Shown: positions 3,594 to 18,093 of the stretch, in pieces
Numbering within the stretch: the first letter of the stretch is position 1
Layout: each line of letters begins with the position of its first letter
IMG/VR virus record: IMGVR_UViG_3300005613_000327
Span: 1 to 28,345 of that record
Strand: one strand, 5' to 3'
DNA length: 28,345 nt
From: a virus
Notes under the pieces: model-generated
Databases searched by the model: none
Told to the model about the DNA's origin: nothing
Seen by the model: only the letters and a program-made list of their open reading frames with translations
Program-made: the position numbers and the translations under genes

Positions 3594-4196
3594 ATGATGA
3601 TAGCAAGCGATAGGCAGATTAAACTTAGCACTATGACCGGCAAACTGACCGGCTTTAAGGCTATAAATACCAACACTGTGACAAATGAGTTTTGTCAAAA
3701 AATGAACAAAACAGATTCAATTTGCGGATCGTGCTATAGCATGGCAATGCTTCAAGGGTCGCGAAAGAACTGCCAGCCCGCATGGCAGAATAATAGCGAG
3801 GTACTTAGCCAGGCACCGTTAAGTGCCAGGCAGTTGCCGGTAATAAACGAGCGTTATTTTAGATTCCATGGGCATGGGGAGTTAATCAATAAAACTCACT
3901 TCGACAACTTATGTCGCATTGCGGAACACAATCCGGCGACGACCTTTGCGCTTTGGACTAAGCGTCGCAATCTTATTTGCGGCGACAAGCCAAGCAATCT
4001 CATTTTGATTTACAGCAACCCAACGATTGATCGGGTAATGAATAATCCGCCGAAAGGATTCGATAAGGTGTTCAACAACGTGGCATCGCCTCGCGCTAAT
4101 GAGAACTGCACCGGTCAAAAATGCGCCGATTGTCTAGAGTGTTACCGCTTCGAAGGGTCATCTGTAATTGTCGAGCGCGTTAAAATTAGGCATTGA
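3594..4196 (+). CDS. Gp88-like cysteine-rich protein
   Basis: This 200-residue protein resembles the 'gene product 88' domain family first named from mycobacteriophages. Recognisable parts are the N-terminal KLSTMTGKLTGF, then CQKMNKTDSICGSCYSMAML (cysteines 34, 44 and 47), RFHGHGELINKTHFDNL (His92, His94), TTFALWTKRRNLI (about 116-128), and a C-terminal cluster of cysteines 162, 167, 170 and 173. The four C-terminal cysteines in CxxxxCxxCxxC spacing look like a metal or iron-sulphur site. The true role of this family is not known to me. It has its own promoter and a GGGAG ribosome-binding site 8 bases before the first of two tandem ATGs. Confidence 0.7.
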   Translation: MMIASDRQIKLSTMTGKLTGFKAINTNTVTNEFCQKMNKTDSICGSCYSMAMLQGSRKNCQPAWQNNSEVLSQAPLSARQLPVINERYFRFHGHGELINKTHFDNLCRIAEHNPATTFALWTKRRNLICGDKPSNLILIYSNPTIDRVMNNPPKGFDKVFNNVASPRANENCTGQKCADCLECYRFEGSSVIVERVKIRH

Positions 4197-9374: not shown

Positions 9375-9603
9375 GGTTGACCCTAAACGGTTAGAACAAT
9401 TCATGCAGCTTAGCCAAAAAGATCAGGCGGGTTGTTTGAATAACATATCCGACAGGTATATCCGAGAGTTGGTGATTAAGGAATTGTTCGGCGAAGAAGG
9501 CTGGTCTGGGGGTAGGACTCCTGGCGGTCTTTTGATTACAAGCGCCGTGGAACGTGCAATTAACGCATTCTCCGAGTCACCTCTGGGTAATAGAAAGGAA
9601 TAA
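9367..9603 (+). CDS. Small unknown protein between terminase and giant gene (78 aa)
   Basis: The ATG at 9367 overlaps the terminase stop by 8 bases. The 78-residue product MGEVDPKRLEQFMQLSQKDQ... is helical, with a GEEGWSGGRTPGGLLI segment in the second half and a basic end GNRKE. The 'F...LS..DQ...L..I...Y...L' pattern hints at a small adaptor or a regulator of the motor, but I recognise no family. It ends four bases before the giant gene's ATG, and its last codons form that gene's ribosome-binding site. Confidence 0.65.
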   Translation: MGEVDPKRLEQFMQLSQKDQAGCLNNISDRYIRELVIKELFGEEGWSGGRTPGGLLITSAVERAINAFSESPLGNRKE

Positions 9604-9607
9604 CACC

Positions 9608-12600
9608 ATGTCGACCTCTTACAATCGTGACGCTATGGCGGACCTCATGTCTTCTTTGGCGACTTATGCGTTAAACGCCCAGATACCTGGAGCGTCTTCA
9701 ACACAGCAAGCGGCACAAGGTGTAAGCTTTACTAATCGAGACGGTGGCGGAAGATCAGGTGCAGTAGCCGCGGGAGACGCGGGTAAGTCTAATACCCCAA
9801 TGCAAGGCGTCACACCTTCAGACACTTCTCAAGGAAGGTTTTCACTCTTTGGCGGTAGCCCTACTTCCACTTCTACTTCTACGTCTCAAGGCCCCGATTT
9901 ATTCCAATCGCTATACGACATGGGCGCTTTTGACACACAAAACGTTTTACCTTTAGACACTTCTGCTTTAACACCTACGTCGCAAGGCTCAGATTTTTTT
10001 CAATCTCTTTATAACGAAGGCTACCTTACGGGATCTCCGGTAAACCCTGGAGGAAATTACGGCTTTTCTGTTGGAAACATAGGTTCAAGCGCTAACTTAA
10101 CGGATGCGATACCCACAGTAACAACGCCTGGTTTTTCTATAGGCAACACGGACAATGCGGTTGTAGGGCCAAATCGACCCGGTGTTGGATTTTTAACAAA
10201 CCTGACTCCCGTGTACGACACCTCTACCTTAGACAACACGGGTTTCCAACTTTCTGATAACTCCGCTTTAGGCGGAGCGCTAAATTTTGATGTGCTGGGA
10301 GGAGGCTCTAACCTCGACTCGGTTCCTACCGGTTCAAACATTGAGAGAATCGATGTAACGGGACAACGCCTTAATCAAGGCAACACGCTTAATTCAGGTG
10401 CATTAGCTTCACTAAATACGAACCTAGACTTAGGCGGTGGGGACGGCGGCGACGGCGAGCCCAGAGAGCCCGACGAAGACCAACGTCCGATTGAAGAGAT
10501 TTTGGTCACAGGCGTTAGAAACGCGGCAAATACGTTGATCCCAGGTTTACCTTTAGTTACAGGTGCATACAATTTCATCAAAGATCTCCCTGAAGGAGAT
10601 TTTACTCCAGATGAATTAAACGCCTTAAACGCGGCTTCTGACGCGGCAAACGTTTACGTTGATCCTGAGCCCACTTACCAAGAAGGCGGCACCGGAACCA
10701 CCACAGGCGGCGGTGTAAACGTCCCGGGTCTTGGCATTGGCTCGTTAGGCGGGAGCCGTGGGTTTGTAGGCACGCAGGATGTTCTTGTACCGGCAACCGG
10801 TCAGATGGGAGACATTTACTCTATCCGTCCTGGTGACACGCGGGGCAGGTTTGCTGCACCGGCGTACGTGAATCCGTACGCGGACGTCGCGGTACAAGAC
10901 ACAGCATTCCGTCCTGGGTTTGTCCCTACTGCTCCGATAGCCGCGGCCCCCGGAACAGGGGTCACGCCTACGGTTACACAACCCACGGTTACACAGCCTA
11001 CGGTTACACAGCCTACGGTTACACAGCCTACGGTTACACAGCCTACGGTTACACAGCCTACGGTTACACAACCCCCGGTCTTACAACCTACTGACAATAC
11101 AGACTTTTACACGGCAAGAGATACTAACAACACAGGACAAACATTAACTGTAAACGACACTACTGGAACAGTTGGTGAAGTGTTTGACTTTCTTACAGGT
11201 GGTACTAGCACGGTCTTACAACCTACGGTTACACAACCTACGGTTACACAACCCACGGTTACACAGCCTACGGTTACACAACCCACGGTTACACAGCCTA
11301 CGGTTACACAGCCTATGGTTACACAACCCCCTGTTATACCGCCTACGGTCATTGCAGACCCTCCAGATGTTATGACGCCTAGAGAAATACTAGACAGTAT
11401 AACTTCGGAAGATGGCTTCTCTCGGGATGAGCAGCAGCAGATAGCAGACTTGCTAAGCAGCGGCGAAATTGGCATTGGTAACGTGATGAATGAGTTCGAC
11501 GTTGGATCGGGAGACGTGGTCGAAGGTCTGTTACGCGGTGGCTTCCAAACGCCTGAACAGCTCACGGAAATGATTCAGGGCTACGGTAACGAGGGGTTCC
11601 AAGAGCAGGATTTGATTGCCGACTTGTTGAACCAGGGCCGTACTACTCCGGAAGAAGTGGCGGGGTACTACAGCGCGAACAGGCCAGAGTTTGCTGACTT
11701 AACGCCTGAAGCGGTTACTGGGTATTTAAACGAAATCAACATGGGTCGCTTGCAGAATTTAAGCGACGTTGAAGTAGGCAAGCTAATCGATAGCGGTGAA
11801 ATGACGCCTGGTCAGGCGGTAGAAATATACCAAAGCCGTTACCCAGGTTTAAAAGAAGCCGACGTGATGGCGTCTTTGAATCAGATGAAGTCTCAGAGCT
11901 TGTTTGCCATGGGCGGCGTTGTTGAGAAAGCGGACGGCATAGAATCTTTGCTAGACAAGCGGCAGCAAGCCGTCAATCGCATGCTTAGCAGAAGAGCGGT
12001 CGCGCAGTTTCGAAACGGAGGACCCGTTGTAAAAAAGCCTTTAGCCCCCGCTAATTTTGCAGGGGGTGGAATTGCCACCAAGCTTATCCAGAAGGGTGCG
12101 GAGATGCTTGGTTTTGATGACGCGCGCCAGATAGAAATTACTCGTGAAGCGGTGGATCTGACCAATCAGATGGTAGACGCCGGTCTAGTTGACCCTAAGT
12201 TCCGCGTTAAGTTGCGTTTACCTAAAGAGGGTGCCACGCGGCAGAACACCGGTATCGAAGGTGACGAAGAAGTCTTTAACGCAGTTAATCACGCGTTGTT
12301 TTCTTACCACGCAGGTAAGAGTCCTTTAGCTCGTGCGGGTTCGCAAGCCAAAGAAATTTATCAGGGCATACGTCTAGCGGGCGCGGGCAAAGACCCGGGG
12401 TCCGAGAGCCTTGATTATTTCAACAACATGTTTGGTTTTGACTTAGCGCGTCAGGGTTTAAGTCCTGAAGAAGCTAAGAACGCGATCATCGACAACATTG
12501 CAAACATCAACAACCAAGGCGCTATGTCTCGGCTGCAAGCGGGCGAGCCGTTGATCGCGGGTAAAGATTTGAGCCGCACGGCTGAGGACATCCGTGGTTC

Positions 12601-14437
12601 TGGACCGGACGTCAGCGCATTTGACGTGCTTGCCGGGGTGCCGGGATTTAAGGACGGCGGTGCTCCTGAAAAAGTGCCTTCTTCTGTCTTAACGGGACAG
12701 GGTAGTTTTTATGGCACACCTTACCGCGAAGAGCCTAAAGTAGATACGGGTGAAACTAATCTTACTTTGCAGCAGCGCTTAGATCAGGCAACGCCTCTCG
12801 AGCAGTACGCTTATGAAGTGTTGGGATTAGAACCCGGGTTAGATAGGGGTATGATTACTCCTGTCGCCATTAGGCAAAGCGGTGACAAAGAATTTGCATT
12901 GCCTGCTTTAGCTTACGATTCGTTGAAAGCTTTGTTGGCTCCGGGAGCGGCTCTCAGCGGTAGGCAAGTCACGCCTGAAGAGACCATTGAACTTGCTATG
13001 GAAACCATGGGCAGTGGCTTAGCTACGCCTGGGGTAGACATCGGCACGGACGTCATGGCCGGTATGGCGGCTAAGCCCAAGGGCGGCCTGTTTGTGCCGA
13101 TGATAAAAGAAGAAAACCCGCTTAGCCCGGACTTTCAAGACAAGGGCGTGCCTACCTACCTTAGAGGTGAGTCGGGGGCCGAGAAAATTCCCGCTTTTTA
13201 TGCGCATCAGTTAATCTCTTCGGGCATGGACGAAGGTCTGGCTATGGACATCGCCAAACGGGCTGAGAATTACTTTAAGAAGTCTTACGGCACCGGTTCA
13301 GATCCTCTTAGAATTCAGATGCTTGAAGGAAAGATAGATCCTATCTTTACGGAAAAGATAACCCCTGAGCTTTTAAAACAAGCGCGAGAAGATTACGCGG
13401 CGTCTAAAAAGGGCGGCTCCAGCACAACCCCTGCTTTACAAAAGTTTGAAAAAGCATACGACTACGCCACGAGTATTATGGCCGAAGCTAATGTGCCAGA
13501 TTTCGACTCTAGCTTTCTGGACAGAGAAAAGCTTCGCGCTACTTTGACGAAAAGAGAAAAGGATAAAATGACTCAAGAGGGAGTACCGGAAGAGTTACAG
13601 AACCAAAAATATATCTCTACCTTAGACCCCGAAGAATACGCGGAAATCGCTTTGCAAAGCCCTGTAATAGCTAGAGCCCTTGATGAATCCGAACTGATGT
13701 ATGACATCTCTCCTTATTCTCTCTCTAAAGAGGGCTTAAGTTTTATTTTGCCGGAAGAGATAGTTGACGGAATCATGTCTTTGCCCGCTAGCAAGCTTGA
13801 GAACATGTCCTTCCCCGATATTGTGGCTAACGTCCAGAAAAGCGGGGCGGCAAAAGACATTAGTCAAATTCGTGAATTTTCTAAAGCTTTTAAAGAAGAG
13901 ACTCGCGCAATAAAAGACGCTAGTTCAGATCCAATACCTCCGGAAAACATTTTTAACAGGTCTTTGCCTGATCCTAGACTTTTGCTAGAAACAGGAGTTG
14001 AGAAAATCGACGACTTTGGCAATGAAGGCTGGTACAGAATAACAGAGCCTGCTTACACTGAGCTCGAAGGCGCGTTGATGGACCACTCTGTGGGCGGATA
14101 CTCGGAAAGCGGAAATTACAATCTCGGTGGACGAAAAGCCCTTAAGTCAGGTCGAGCAGGCATTTTCTCTTTACGCAACAACGAAACGGGTCGTCCGCGA
14201 CTGACCGTGGAAATTGACTTTTTAGACCCGGACAGGCCAAAACCGACAGCCAGTCAAATTCAGGGCCCCTCAAACTCTGATATAAAGGCTAAAGACTACG
14301 ATAAGTTGTTCTCGCTTTACGATGAAGTGGGTGTATTGATCGAGGACCTGCCGCGTTTCTGGCGAGATGCTTACAGAAGGTACAAAGAAACAGGGGTATC
14401 GGGTATGGATGATTACTTTGGACCTTCCGATGTATAA
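9608..14437 (+). CDS. Giant multidomain virion-cluster protein (1,609 aa), polyvalent-protein-like
   Basis: The ATG 9608 follows AAAGGAATAACACC. Residues 1-240 are Ser/Thr/Gly-rich with a repeated QGxDxFQSLYxxG (94 and 126). IERIDVTGQR (245-254) and IEEILVTGVR (295-304) resemble TonB boxes. Seven TVTQP units (455-489) and eight related units (535-574) follow, then a helical domain with repeated '[LI]xxGExTPxx[AV]'. GG motifs occur at 766 (FAMGG), 801, 817 and 1014. A helical domain has NHALFSYH (894) and DYFNNMFG (about 937), recalling DUF6973. The C-terminus (about 1475-1560) has W...LMDHSVGGY (His1493) and IFSLRNNETGRPRLTVE (1519-1535), like the PcfJ/polyvalent-protein domain. No signal peptide or clear enzyme. 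Its place between terminase and portal suggests a packaged, ejected protein. Confidence 0.8.
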   Translation: MSTSYNRDAMADLMSSLATYALNAQIPGASSTQQAAQGVSFTNRDGGGRSGAVAAGDAGKSNTPMQGVTPSDTSQGRFSLFGGSPTSTSTSTSQGPDLFQSLYDMGAFDTQNVLPLDTSALTPTSQGSDFFQSLYNEGYLTGSPVNPGGNYGFSVGNIGSSANLTDAIPTVTTPGFSIGNTDNAVVGPNRPGVGFLTNLTPVYDTSTLDNTGFQLSDNSALGGALNFDVLGGGSNLDSVPTGSNIERIDVTGQRLNQGNTLNSGALASLNTNLDLGGGDGGDGEPREPDEDQRPIEEILVTGVRNAANTLIPGLPLVTGAYNFIKDLPEGDFTPDELNALNAASDAANVYVDPEPTYQEGGTGTTTGGGVNVPGLGIGSLGGSRGFVGTQDVLVPATGQMGDIYSIRPGDTRGRFAAPAYVNPYADVAVQDTAFRPGFVPTAPIAAAPGTGVTPTVTQPTVTQPTVTQPTVTQPTVTQPTVTQPTVTQPPVLQPTDNTDFYTARDTNNTGQTLTVNDTTGTVGEVFDFLTGGTSTVLQPTVTQPTVTQPTVTQPTVTQPTVTQPTVTQPMVTQPPVIPPTVIADPPDVMTPREILDSITSEDGFSRDEQQQIADLLSSGEIGIGNVMNEFDVGSGDVVEGLLRGGFQTPEQLTEMIQGYGNEGFQEQDLIADLLNQGRTTPEEVAGYYSANRPEFADLTPEAVTGYLNEINMGRLQNLSDVEVGKLIDSGEMTPGQAVEIYQSRYPGLKEADVMASLNQMKSQSLFAMGGVVEKADGIESLLDKRQQAVNRMLSRRAVAQFRNGGPVVKKPLAPANFAGGGIATKLIQKGAEMLGFDDARQIEITREAVDLTNQMVDAGLVDPKFRVKLRLPKEGATRQNTGIEGDEEVFNAVNHALFSYHAGKSPLARAGSQAKEIYQGIRLAGAGKDPGSESLDYFNNMFGFDLARQGLSPEEAKNAIIDNIANINNQGAMSRLQAGEPLIAGKDLSRTAEDIRGSGPDVSAFDVLAGVPGFKDGGAPEKVPSSVLTGQGSFYGTPYREEPKVDTGETNLTLQQRLDQATPLEQYAYEVLGLEPGLDRGMITPVAIRQSGDKEFALPALAYDSLKALLAPGAALSGRQVTPEETIELAMETMGSGLATPGVDIGTDVMAGMAAKPKGGLFVPMIKEENPLSPDFQDKGVPTYLRGESGAEKIPAFYAHQLISSGMDEGLAMDIAKRAENYFKKSYGTGSDPLRIQMLEGKIDPIFTEKITPELLKQAREDYAASKKGGSSTTPALQKFEKAYDYATSIMAEANVPDFDSSFLDREKLRATLTKREKDKMTQEGVPEELQNQKYISTLDPEEYAEIALQSPVIARALDESELMYDISPYSLSKEGLSFILPEEIVDGIMSLPASKLENMSFPDIVANVQKSGAAKDISQIREFSKAFKEETRAIKDASSDPIPPENIFNRSLPDPRLLLETGVEKIDDFGNEGWYRITEPAYTELEGALMDHSVGGYSESGNYNLGGRKALKSGRAGIFSLRNNETGRPRLTVEIDFLDPDRPKPTASQIQGPSNSDIKAKDYDKLFSLYDEVGVLIEDLPRFWRDAYRRYKETGVSGMDDYFGPSDV
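10970..11074 (+). repeat. Seven tandem 15-bp repeats coding TVTQP
   Basis: Seven in-frame copies of a 15-base unit (ACGGTTACACAGCCT type) encode TVTQP. They differ only at silent third positions (CAA/CAG, CCC/CCT). A variant unit PVLQP follows. Confidence 0.95.
11210..11329 (+). repeat. Second tandem array coding TVLQP, TVTQP x6, MVTQP
   Basis: Eight 15-base units of the same family, 135 bases after the first array. The first (TVLQP) and last (MVTQP) units are degenerate. Spread of the silent variants suggests slippage or recombination between the arrays. Confidence 0.95.
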
Positions 14438-14438
14438 T

Positions 14439-14456
14439 ATGTTCCACGTGGAACAT
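14439..14456. promoter_or_regulatory. Perfect parS-type palindrome
   Basis: ATGTTCCACGTGGAACAT is an 18-base perfect palindrome in the 43-base gap between the giant gene and the portal gene. Its inner 16 bases, TGTTCCACGTGGAACA (14440-14455), fit the bacterial chromosomal parS pattern GTTnCACGTGnAAC exactly. ParB proteins load on such sites. A TATAAT at 14433-14438 touches its left side, without a good -35. No parA or parB gene is visible in the window. Confidence 0.75.
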
Positions 14457-14480: not shown

Positions 14481-16916
14481 ATGGCAAACGGTGACAGCAT
14501 AACGCCTATGATGGAGCGTCGGGAGGACCCGATAGACTTATCCATTGAGGATCAAGTGGAAATTGCGGTGCCCGGTGCGATGGAAAACATGGCTCGAGAA
14601 GGTCTTGACATCGAAATCACCGAAGATGACGAAGGCGGCGTGGTCATAGACTTTGACCCATCTATGCGCGACGTCGATGAAGGCGACTTTTTCCGCAATT
14701 TGGCCGAAGAAATTGACACCGGAATCCTTGGATCCGTGGCCAACGAGCTTATGGGCGAGTTCGATGCCAACAAATCCTCTCGTCAAGAGTGGGAAGACAC
14801 CTATCGAGAGGGTTTGGAGCTTCTTGGTTTTTCTTACGAAGAGCGCACACTGCCCTTTAGAGGCTCTACAGGAGTCACACACCCGCTTTTAGCCGAAGCC
14901 GCCACTCAGTTCCAAGCTCAAGCCTTTAACGAGCTGCTGCCCCCTGACGGGCCTGTACGTACGTCTGTGATAGGTGCGCCTACTCGAGAGAAAGAACAGC
15001 AAGCAAGACGGGTAAAAGAATTCATGAACTACTACATCACCAACGTGATGGAGGAATACACCCCTGAATTCGACCAAATGCTGTTTTATTTACCCTTGGC
15101 AGGCTCTACTTTCAAGAAAGTTTACTTCGATGAGGCCCTAAACCGTGTTGTCAGCAAGTTTGTGCCTGCTGAAAACCTTGTTGTGCCTTACGAAACAAGC
15201 AGTTTAGAGACTTGTCCGTGCATCGCGAACGTTATTTCGATGCCTTTGAACCAGTTGCGCAAGCTTCAGGTGTCTGGATTCTATTTAGACGTCCCCGTTC
15301 TACCCGGTCAGACCGATACGAACGAAGTTACGGACGAAATGGACAGAATTCAGGGTGTCCAGGCGTCAAATGTAGACTATGACGTGACTTTGTTAGAGTT
15401 TCACGTTGAATTAGACCTCGCAGGGTTCGAGGATACTGACGGAGACGGGGAAGAGACAGGAATTAAACTGCCTTACATCGTAACCATCGTTGAAAACAGC
15501 GGGGTTGTTTTGTCCATTCGCCGTAACTACGCCGAGGACGACGAAGATCGCAAGAAAATTCAATTTTTCGTTCACTACAAGTTCCTTCCTGGTTTTGGTT
15601 TCTATGGTTTGGGTCTAATCCACACTATTGGCGGCCTATCTAGGACGGCTACAGCGGCCCTCAGACAGCTTATCGACGCGGGTACGCTATCTAACCTCCC
15701 CGCAGGCTTTAAAGCCCGTGGGATGCGAATACGGGACGATTCTGAGCCGCTACAACCGGGAGAATTCCGTGATGTAGACGCTCCAGGCGGCGCTATTCGA
15801 GATAGTTTGATTCCGTTGCCGTTTAAAGGCCCAGACAGCACGCTATTCCAGCTCTTAGGCTTTGTTGTACAAGCCGGACAGCGCTTTGCCACGATTACTG
15901 ACCTAAAAGTAGGTGACGGTAACCAGCAAGCGGCGGTCGGCACGACAGTAGCCATGCTTGAGCAAGGTAGCCGGGTCATGAGTGCAGTCCACAAGCGCCT
16001 GCATTACGCCATGCGGCAGGAATTTAAGCTCCTGACACGTGTAATGCACGAATCTCTGCCACAGGAGTATCCGTTCTCCGTCGAAGGCGGAGATGAAACC
16101 ATTATGGCGTCTGATTTTGACGATCGTGTGGACGTGGTACCTGTATCTAACCCCAACATTTTCTCGCAAGCACAGCGTATTGCTTTGGCTCAAGCGCAGC
16201 TACAGATGGCTACACAAGCGCCTCAGATGCACAACATGCATGAAGCTTTCCGCCGCATGTACGACGCGTTGGGTGTTAAGGATGTAGATAAGTTGTTAAA
16301 TCAACCTGCTACGTTGGAACCGATACCCAAAGACCCTGCGCAAGAGAATATCGATGCGCTGGATAACGTGGACCTTAAAGCCTTTGATGGCCAGAACCAC
16401 GATGCGCACATTGTATCACACTTGTTGTTCAGTGCGTCGCCTATAGCGGCTCAGACTCCGTCTATCATTGCTTCGTTGCAGAAACACGTAACTGAGCATG
16501 TCAAGATTAAGTCTGAAGAAATGGCCATGATGCAGTTTATGCAGCAAAGCCAGGGACAACCGCCTACCGATGATCAGATGCTTGAAATTGAGATGCTGAT
16601 CGCGCAAAACATCGCTCAAGAGCTACAGAATGTACGCCAGTTGAGCATGCAGATAGCAGGTCAAGGACAACCGCAACAGCAAGGTCCTGACCCGTTAATC
16701 GCGCTCAAAGAGAAGGAAATCGGCATCAAAGAGCAGCAGACAATGGCTGATATCCAAGAGAGCCAAGCTAAGCTAGACTTAGAGCGTCAGAAGATGATGG
16801 AGCGAGGTCGCCAGTTTGATGAAAGGCTTGAAAGCCAAGAACAAATGACGGCCGCTAGATTGAACGCACAAGCTGAACGAGAGCTATTACGATTACGACA
16901 GAACCGAGGAGGTTAG
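14481..16916 (+). CDS. Portal protein
   Basis: The dodecameric DNA gate at the head vertex. The 811-residue product has an acidic N-terminus (DEGGVVIDFDPS), then RQEWEDTYREGLELLGF and RTLPFRGSTGVTHPLLAEAATQFQAQAFNELLPPDGPVR, described here in parts: the segment 'GSTGVTHPLLAEA' (about 127-139) and 'NELLPPDGPVR' (about 149-159) are typical of large podovirus-type portals. The centre carries the wing and crown (VHYKFLPGFGFYGLGLIHTIGG) and LIDAGTLSNLPAGFKARG. The last 150 residues form a Gln-rich coiled coil (barrel-like tail). A portal this long suits a short-tailed phage. The ATG at 14481 follows AAAGG. Confidence 0.9.
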   Translation: MANGDSITPMMERREDPIDLSIEDQVEIAVPGAMENMAREGLDIEITEDDEGGVVIDFDPSMRDVDEGDFFRNLAEEIDTGILGSVANELMGEFDANKSSRQEWEDTYREGLELLGFSYEERTLPFRGSTGVTHPLLAEAATQFQAQAFNELLPPDGPVRTSVIGAPTREKEQQARRVKEFMNYYITNVMEEYTPEFDQMLFYLPLAGSTFKKVYFDEALNRVVSKFVPAENLVVPYETSSLETCPCIANVISMPLNQLRKLQVSGFYLDVPVLPGQTDTNEVTDEMDRIQGVQASNVDYDVTLLEFHVELDLAGFEDTDGDGEETGIKLPYIVTIVENSGVVLSIRRNYAEDDEDRKKIQFFVHYKFLPGFGFYGLGLIHTIGGLSRTATAALRQLIDAGTLSNLPAGFKARGMRIRDDSEPLQPGEFRDVDAPGGAIRDSLIPLPFKGPDSTLFQLLGFVVQAGQRFATITDLKVGDGNQQAAVGTTVAMLEQGSRVMSAVHKRLHYAMRQEFKLLTRVMHESLPQEYPFSVEGGDETIMASDFDDRVDVVPVSNPNIFSQAQRIALAQAQLQMATQAPQMHNMHEAFRRMYDALGVKDVDKLLNQPATLEPIPKDPAQENIDALDNVDLKAFDGQNHDAHIVSHLLFSASPIAAQTPSIIASLQKHVTEHVKIKSEEMAMMQFMQQSQGQPPTDDQMLEIEMLIAQNIAQELQNVRQLSMQIAGQGQPQQQGPDPLIALKEKEIGIKEQQTMADIQESQAKLDLERQKMMERGRQFDERLESQEQMTAARLNAQAERELLRLRQNRGG

Positions 16917-17405: not shown

Positions 17406-17603
17406 ATGGATGATTTTTACGTCGTTCAGTTTATCCAAAAGATAATCAAAGAGCGCAAACGACAGGTTTTGGACCTGCTAGAAAACAATGGCATTAATTC
17501 TATGGAGCAGTACGCCTCTTTGATGGGCGAACTTAACTCTTTGAATTATATCCAACAGGAACTCTCGGACCTGCTAGAAAAACAGGAGCATATGCATGAT
17601 TGA
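17406..17603 (+). CDS. Small coiled-coil protein before co-chaperonin (65 aa)
   Basis: The 65-residue product MDDFYVVQFIQKIIKERKRQ... is nearly all helix with heptads (VLDLLENNGINSMEQYASLM, then LNSLNYIQQELSDLLEKQ). It overlaps the co-chaperonin gene by 8 bases and shares the GGAGGAG ribosome-binding site region with the operator-like repeats. Similar short helical proteins often stand before phage scaffold genes in marine phages, from memory. It may be a head-assembly helper; no known family. Confidence 0.7.
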   Translation: MDDFYVVQFIQKIIKERKRQVLDLLENNGINSMEQYASLMGELNSLNYIQQELSDLLEKQEHMHD

Positions 17604-18093
17604 AGTCCCAGGCTACTTAGCCAAGGAACTGGAAGCGGAGAAAAAAGCCAAGGAAGCCGAAGCTGCTAAAGCTGAGGTGGAAAAGGAAGAAGGCGTAGAC
17701 AAGATGTATGTCGAGCCTAAAGCCCGTGTTCTAGACCCCTCAAAAGCTGATAAATCTATGATTGATCGCATGCCCAACCCTACTGGCTGGCGTATGCTCA
17801 TTCTTCCCTACCGTGGAAAAGCCAAGACCGATGGCGGTATTTACATACCGGACAAGATCTTGGATGACGGTCAAATCCAAACCGTTGTTGGTTATGTCCT
17901 TAAGCAGGGGCCTTTGGCCTATGCTGATACGGAAAAGTTCCCGGATGGCCCGTGGTGCAAGGAAAAAGACTGGGTTGTCTTCGCGCGTTATGCGGGGTCC
18001 AGGTTCCGTATTGATGGCGGTGAGGTCCGGATTCTCAACGATGACGAGATTCTGGCTACGATAGATGATCCGGAAGATATCATTAGCTTTTAA
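17596..18093 (+). CDS. GroES/Cpn10-like co-chaperonin
   Basis: Residues 61-156 match the Cpn10 fold: NPTGWRMLILPYRGKAK, then TDGGIYIPDK with a mobile-loop-like hinge (74-86), QTVVGYVLKQGPLAY (95-109), WVVFARYAGSRF and VRILNDDEILATI. Co-chaperonins cap GroEL; phage versions (T4 gp31 is the known example) adapt host GroEL to fold the capsid protein. The first 60 residues are an unusual addition: an acidic/basic helix (EAEKKAKEAEAAKAEVEKEE) and a linker. It is longer (165 aa) than bacterial GroES (about 97). It lies between portal and scaffold genes, which fits a role in head-protein folding. Confidence 0.85.
   Translation: MIEVPGYLAKELEAEKKAKEAEAAKAEVEKEEGVDKMYVEPKARVLDPSKADKSMIDRMPNPTGWRMLILPYRGKAKTDGGIYIPDKILDDGQIQTVVGYVLKQGPLAYADTEKFPDGPWCKEKDWVVFARYAGSRFRIDGGEVRILNDDEILATIDDPEDIISF

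Follow-up and report, generated by a model that had tools for sequence, protein, structure and literature searches.

A chromosomal-type parS site before the portal gene of a tailed phage: a candidate loading point for the host's ParB

The DNA analysed here, which we call the window, is the whole of a 28,345-bp IMG/VR virus record, and at positions 14439-14456 it carries the 18-bp palindrome ATGTTCCACGTGGAACAT. Judged from its letters, this palindrome is a true parS site of the chromosomal type, on a phage in which neither ParA nor ParB was detected, and we propose it as a loading site for host ParB. It is probably a functional parS that is kept to load the ParB of the host chromosome, and the likeliest benefit would be centromere mimicry. 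The DNA element itself is the known parS; what would be new is that a phage, as a mobile element, hijacks the machinery of its host's chromosome. Since the genes around the site encode a terminase, a GroES-like protein, a capsid protein and an SU10 adaptor, the window belongs to a marine tailed phage related to HTVC027P, HTVC023P, CRP-901 and DSL-LC04. The features discussed below are as follows.

9554-14437, plus strand: 1627-aa gene, upstream of the parS
14433-14438, plus strand: TATAAT hexamer, overlapping the stop codon of the 1627-aa gene, in no promoter call
14439-14456, no strand assigned: perfect parS palindrome ATGTTCCACGTGGAACAT, 18 bp, its core kept in 17/17 close portal relatives
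14441-14454: parS core GTTCCACGTGGAAC, within ATGTTCCACGTGGAACAT
14481-16916, plus strand: SU10-type portal protein gene (PF23899 SU10_portal, E=2.6e-15), downstream neighbour of the parS
15398-15411, plus strand: parS-like stretch in the portal gene, 2 mismatches
17596-18093, plus strand: GroES-like gene (PF00166), without a parS in the window

The 1627-aa gene closes with a stop codon at 14435-14437. The parS starts two bases past it, and a 24-nt gap separates the end of the parS from the portal ATG (14481). It is the single perfect match to GTTNCACGTGNAAC in the whole record. A parS is a 14-16 bp palindrome of the form TGTTYCACGTGRAACA; the match in the window is perfect over 18 bp, exactly as the first-pass annotation had described it. 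The mismatched stretch within the portal gene is probably incidental. At the corresponding place, one relative (L140, 415-428) has a perfect parS. The 1627-aa gene contains two TVTQP repeat arrays, and an ORF with a GP88 domain (PF17338) lies at 3594-4196.

A lone match to GTTNCACGTGNAAC, with its 12 fixed bases, is only mildly surprising in one window: for GTTnCACGTGnAAC, which also fixes 12 bases, a chance match is expected in about 1 in 600 windows of this size. The figure of about 1 in 10,000 originally given holds for TGTTnCACGTGnAACA, which has 14 fixed bases and is also matched at the site, but not for GTTnCACGTGnAAC. Relatives of the window phage were collected through the SU10-type portal gene. 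The resulting 81 portal-bearing loci (656 kb, window included) hold 38 parS sites, against a Markov expectation of 0.04 for the same 656 kb; for 179 composition-matched palindromes the mean is 0.022. Portal relatives below 84% identity alone still hold 19 sites. Loci picked by the R..Y pattern were discarded as a background, since that pattern selects itself. The occurrence of parS in this lineage is thus beyond chance.

The conservation check suggested by the first-pass annotation came out in favour of the site. Among relatives that reach 84% portal identity or more and have upstream DNA available, all (17/17) have the parS core before the portal, at an offset of -40, -47, -101/-102 or -114. 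Relatives of up to 99% portal identity have another kind of gene end before the portal, and in the nearest of them this other gene end has its own in-frame parS. The site is intergenic in the window and in L129, L130, L135, L186 and L133; in L122-L128, L131, L134, L139, L165 and L132 a different gene stands upstream and contains the site in frame, close to its 3' end, and the peptides read from the in-frame sites before the portal are VPRGT, VSRGT and VPRET. L122 is the nearest relative of the window in the portal tree (99% identity), yet its parS lies in a different upstream gene whereas that of the window is intergenic, which indicates that the gene end was exchanged and the parS kept. Among more distant relatives, the N-terminal linker of the GroES gene contains an in-frame parS (VSRET) in L137, L155, L156, L161 and L164; in others the site is found at the start of a scaffold-like or terminase gene, or between genes. 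Up to three sites occur per genome, as in G014 (57.7 kb). No perfect parS was found in DSL-LC04, 023Pt_psg01, HTVC023P, CRP-901 and GB2A among the relatives scanned. The lineage sites tend toward the terminase-to-capsid region (G014 14098, 22336 and 25279; window 14439; HTVC027P 16413; QDWS535 47935). As most loci were fetched around the portal, sampling may bias this apparent preference for the head and packaging module, which was non-significant in the single near-complete genome; suggestive but confounded, it was set aside as evidence.

The letters of the site vary in a manner peculiar to parS. In the eleven sequences with the site at -101, none of the 12 parS-defining bases varies, although four of these are third-codon positions, whereas 41 of 53 third positions vary in the flanks. 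The sole varying parS bases in this group are the two free positions, and there the changes alter amino acids (P/S, G/E). Across the portal relatives 36 of 37 sites have Y..R at the free positions, the exception being L129 (C..C). Fixed contact bases, 12 in number, and variation confined to the two Y..R positions are the behaviour of a parS. Since the defining bases are fixed even where silent while neighbouring third positions change freely, selection on the site acts on the DNA and not on the protein, independently of the gene context.

A ParABS system encoded by the phage itself was considered and rejected. The window contains no ParB_N (PF02195) or ParA-type AAA_31 (PF13614) domain, in agreement with the first-pass view that no parA or parB is present, and no tyrosine integrase. 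ParB_N was found in 0 of 43 lineage records and AAA_31 in 0 of 28 records tested; beyond the lineage, 46 of 50 parS-bearing IMG/VR records lack ParB_N, as do 18 of 19 named parS phages (Quhwah has one). The window and many IMG/VR records are fragments; HTVC027P and G014, 57-kb relatives that are complete or nearly so, have neither ParA nor ParB. Chromosomal parS sites cluster near oriC, usually near parAB, whereas the phage record is without parAB; the arrangement found, a parS carried by a mobile element that has no ParAB of its own, is that of an SGI1-like parS mimic. A temperate lifestyle by way of an integrase was also rejected, as a tyrosine integrase was absent from 26 of 28 records tested and from all lineage records among them.

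The site is not a peculiarity of one phage, as might have been supposed at first, but is widespread among relatives and unrelated phages alike. Among the matches listed for TGTTNCACGTGNAACA in IMG/VR, 138 of 145 sites are Y..R and none is R..Y; the R..Y class amounts to 52 stretches in the entire collection. A tens-fold enrichment of Y..R is an estimate only, drawn from at least 145 IMG/VR sites among the matches listed. In padded BLAST searches of INPHARED, ATGTTTCACGTGAAACAT was found in 315 records and ATGTTCCACGTGGAACAT in 108, whereas the reversed controls of both 18-mers gave 0 and 0; public phage collections are redundant, so that these record counts are not independent events. The leading groups are Listeria, Microbacterium, Arthrobacter, Gordonia, Mycobacterium, Pseudomonas, Bacillus and Lactobacillus phages and Microviridae, and the parS 14-mer also occurs in Herelleviridae, Picovirinae and Inoviridae. 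In a set of 19 named phages there are 35 sites; every one is Y..R, and the backward control has no match in the set. Most dsDNA phages have only one to three sites, even in genomes above 100 kb. The densest case is an inovirus of 6.2 kb (PQ006097.1, L384, 1-6183) with six perfect copies of GTTTCACGTGAAAC. Perfect sites are also present in ssDNA microviruses (L385 3903-3920 and L394 692-709; phi-CA82 and Spiroplasma phage 4), and the site is therefore not confined to dsDNA phages. A 23-kb viral contig (L235 and L257, IMGVR_UViG_3300037423_000235) carries eight copies of an off-class palindrome, TGTTRCACGTGYAACA, which perhaps belongs to a ParB of different specificity or to some other repeat system.

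Escherichia is missing from both top-ten lists of the parS-matching INPHARED records, although the annotated phage collection has 538 Escherichia records that can be recognised by T4-type capsid genes alone. Escherichia is not known to have a chromosomal ParABS, and its absence from these lists fits the expectation for hosts without that system. Against this stand the Klebsiella RaK2-like phages, which have one parS copy, located in coding sequence, although ParABS is not known to be used by their hosts. Pseudomonas phages carry the form TGTTCCACGTGGAACA, and Firmicute and most actinobacterial phages the form TGTTTCACGTGAAACA; the host consensus is TGTTCCACGTGGAACA in Pseudomonas and TGTTTCACGTGAAACA in Firmicutes and actinobacteria (PMC7022226, Table 1). 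The parS form of a phage thus tends to follow that of its host, which is consistent with host ParB loading at the phage site. Mycobacterium phages with the CG form are an exception, as they mismatch the M. smegmatis consensus. The window has the CG form, whereas three alphaproteobacterial MAGs with portal relatives have the TA form. In a search of genome contigs the portal was found in only 4 MAGs, too few to point to a host and possibly as binned phage contigs.

We infer from these observations that host ParB binds the phage parS during infection. Nucleating at this site, ParB-CTP clamps of the host would spread along the adjacent phage DNA, and the phage genome would acquire a ParB cluster like that of the host's origin region, which could be moved or positioned by ParA and could recruit SMC. 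The likeliest benefit would be that phage DNA is held, positioned or spread on the nucleoid while a long infection or carrier state lasts, and is shared between daughter cells. A long-lived carrier state is conjecture, because none of the lineage records tested showed an integrase. Recruitment of host ParB was among the suggestions of the first-pass annotation and is retained as the best reading, in view of the parS type, its conservation in relatives and the lack of parA and parB; the link it drew to the portal gene and to TATAAT is not. Which consequence of ParB binding is under selection is less certain than the binding. Centromere mimicry is favoured because one to three parS per genome suffice for partition: in P. 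aeruginosa a single high-affinity parS close to oriC is enough for segregation (PMC4368675), and the parS mimics of SGI1 raise its stability through the ParABS of an IncC plasmid (PMC10954446).

The same binding could instead serve as a decoy, with replicating phage genomes multiplying parS and titrating ParB off the host origin, so that host segregation and division would be blocked or SMC freed, and partition of the phage DNA would bring no benefit. Replication turns one site per genome into many, each of them is loaded with ParB clamps over and over, the parS copies that SGI1 brings in destabilise its helper plasmid (PMC10954446), and the small inovirus packs six sites into its genome; but a decoy should favour arrays, and the low copy numbers of most dsDNA phages do not follow this expectation, nor would a lytic phage gain much by blocking segregation in a doomed cell. 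We regard a decoy as rather unlikely, and centromere mimicry as the more likely use. Still less probable is that ParB serves to load SMC (condensin), so that phage DNA or concatemers would be compacted or disentangled to the benefit of replication or packaging. Host ParB-parS complexes do recruit SMC (PMC7022226) and the lineage sites tend toward the terminase-to-capsid region, but the weakness of that position bias and its portal-centred sampling speak against this use, as does the presence of parS in small ssDNA phages.

There are two further readings. Regulation of the portal gene was raised in the first-pass annotation; local control of its transcription, by ParB or another regulator at the palindrome or by a hairpin in the transcript, seems very improbable. 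TATAAT adjoins the site, and a 7-bp hairpin (-9.7 kcal/mol) is possible in the RNA, but the hexamer belongs to no -35/-10 pair and is not conserved with the parS; there is no promoter or terminator call around the site, the z-score of the hairpin is only -1.0, and the stem is disrupted in the common C..A variants, which account for 7 of the 37 sites in relatives. Moreover, the site varies in its offset from the portal or lies kilobases off, shifting to other genes and often into coding sequence. Least probable of all is that a phage-encoded protein such as a terminase small subunit, a repressor or a replication protein binds the palindrome and the likeness to parS is coincidental. The lineage sites do lie near packaging genes, but the 14-mer with Y..R recurs in Herelleviridae, Picovirinae, Inoviridae, Microviridae and others, which have no such protein in common, and composition-matched palindromes and reversed controls are absent. 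This parS-specific degeneracy and recurrence in unrelated families likewise make the earlier caveat, that any other regulatory palindrome might occupy the gap, an unlikely one.

Capture of host ParB may extend well beyond this lineage: we think it fairly likely that centromere piracy is a widespread and hitherto unrecognised strategy by which many unrelated dsDNA phages, microviruses and inoviruses keep host-type parS sites without a ParB and use the ParABS/SMC machinery of the host chromosome in trans. A full-text literature search, which covered neither preprints nor most subscription journals, returned no account of a phage that uses a chromosomal parS together with the ParB of its host. 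If the reading is correct, chromosome segregation is a phage-host interface and ParB an infection factor or target, and loss or divergence of host ParB or parS might be partly phage-driven. The parS form is a marker readable from sequence that may help host prediction, and the proposal can be tested in laboratory pairs such as Bacillus subtilis with B103-type phages, which have two parS sites, and Pseudomonas aeruginosa with KPP25.

The phage site has the same sequence and the same tolerated Y..R positions as the parS of chromosomal ParABS (ParB/Spo0J), and is a perfect palindrome of the Pseudomonas-type consensus; unlike a chromosomal parS, it stands on a phage genome that encodes no ParA or ParB, apart from any oriC or parAB operon. 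The phages HTVC027P, HTVC023P, CRP-901 and DSL-LC04 have a related SU10-type portal (45-51% identity) and the same head-gene order as the window: HTVC027P has one parS (GTTTCACGTGAAAC) in a gap between genes, whereas HTVC023P, 023Pt_psg01, CRP-901 and DSL-LC04, unlike the window, are without a perfect one. Plasmid-prophages such as P1 and the extrachromosomal mycobacteriophages (PMC7157519) likewise carry centromere sites on phage DNA but encode their own partition proteins, whereas no ParB_N or AAA_31 was found in the window lineage. The closest likeness is to SGI1 (PMC10954446), a mobile element with a centromere only, which uses the ParA and ParB of another replicon. In SGI1 the system used is a plasmid ParABS and its use is experimentally proven; here it would be the ParABS of the host chromosome, the phages are of lytic type, and the case is made from sequence alone. 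If it holds, parS hijacking, for which SGI1 on IncC plasmids is the single proven case that we found, would extend to host chromosomes and to viruses.
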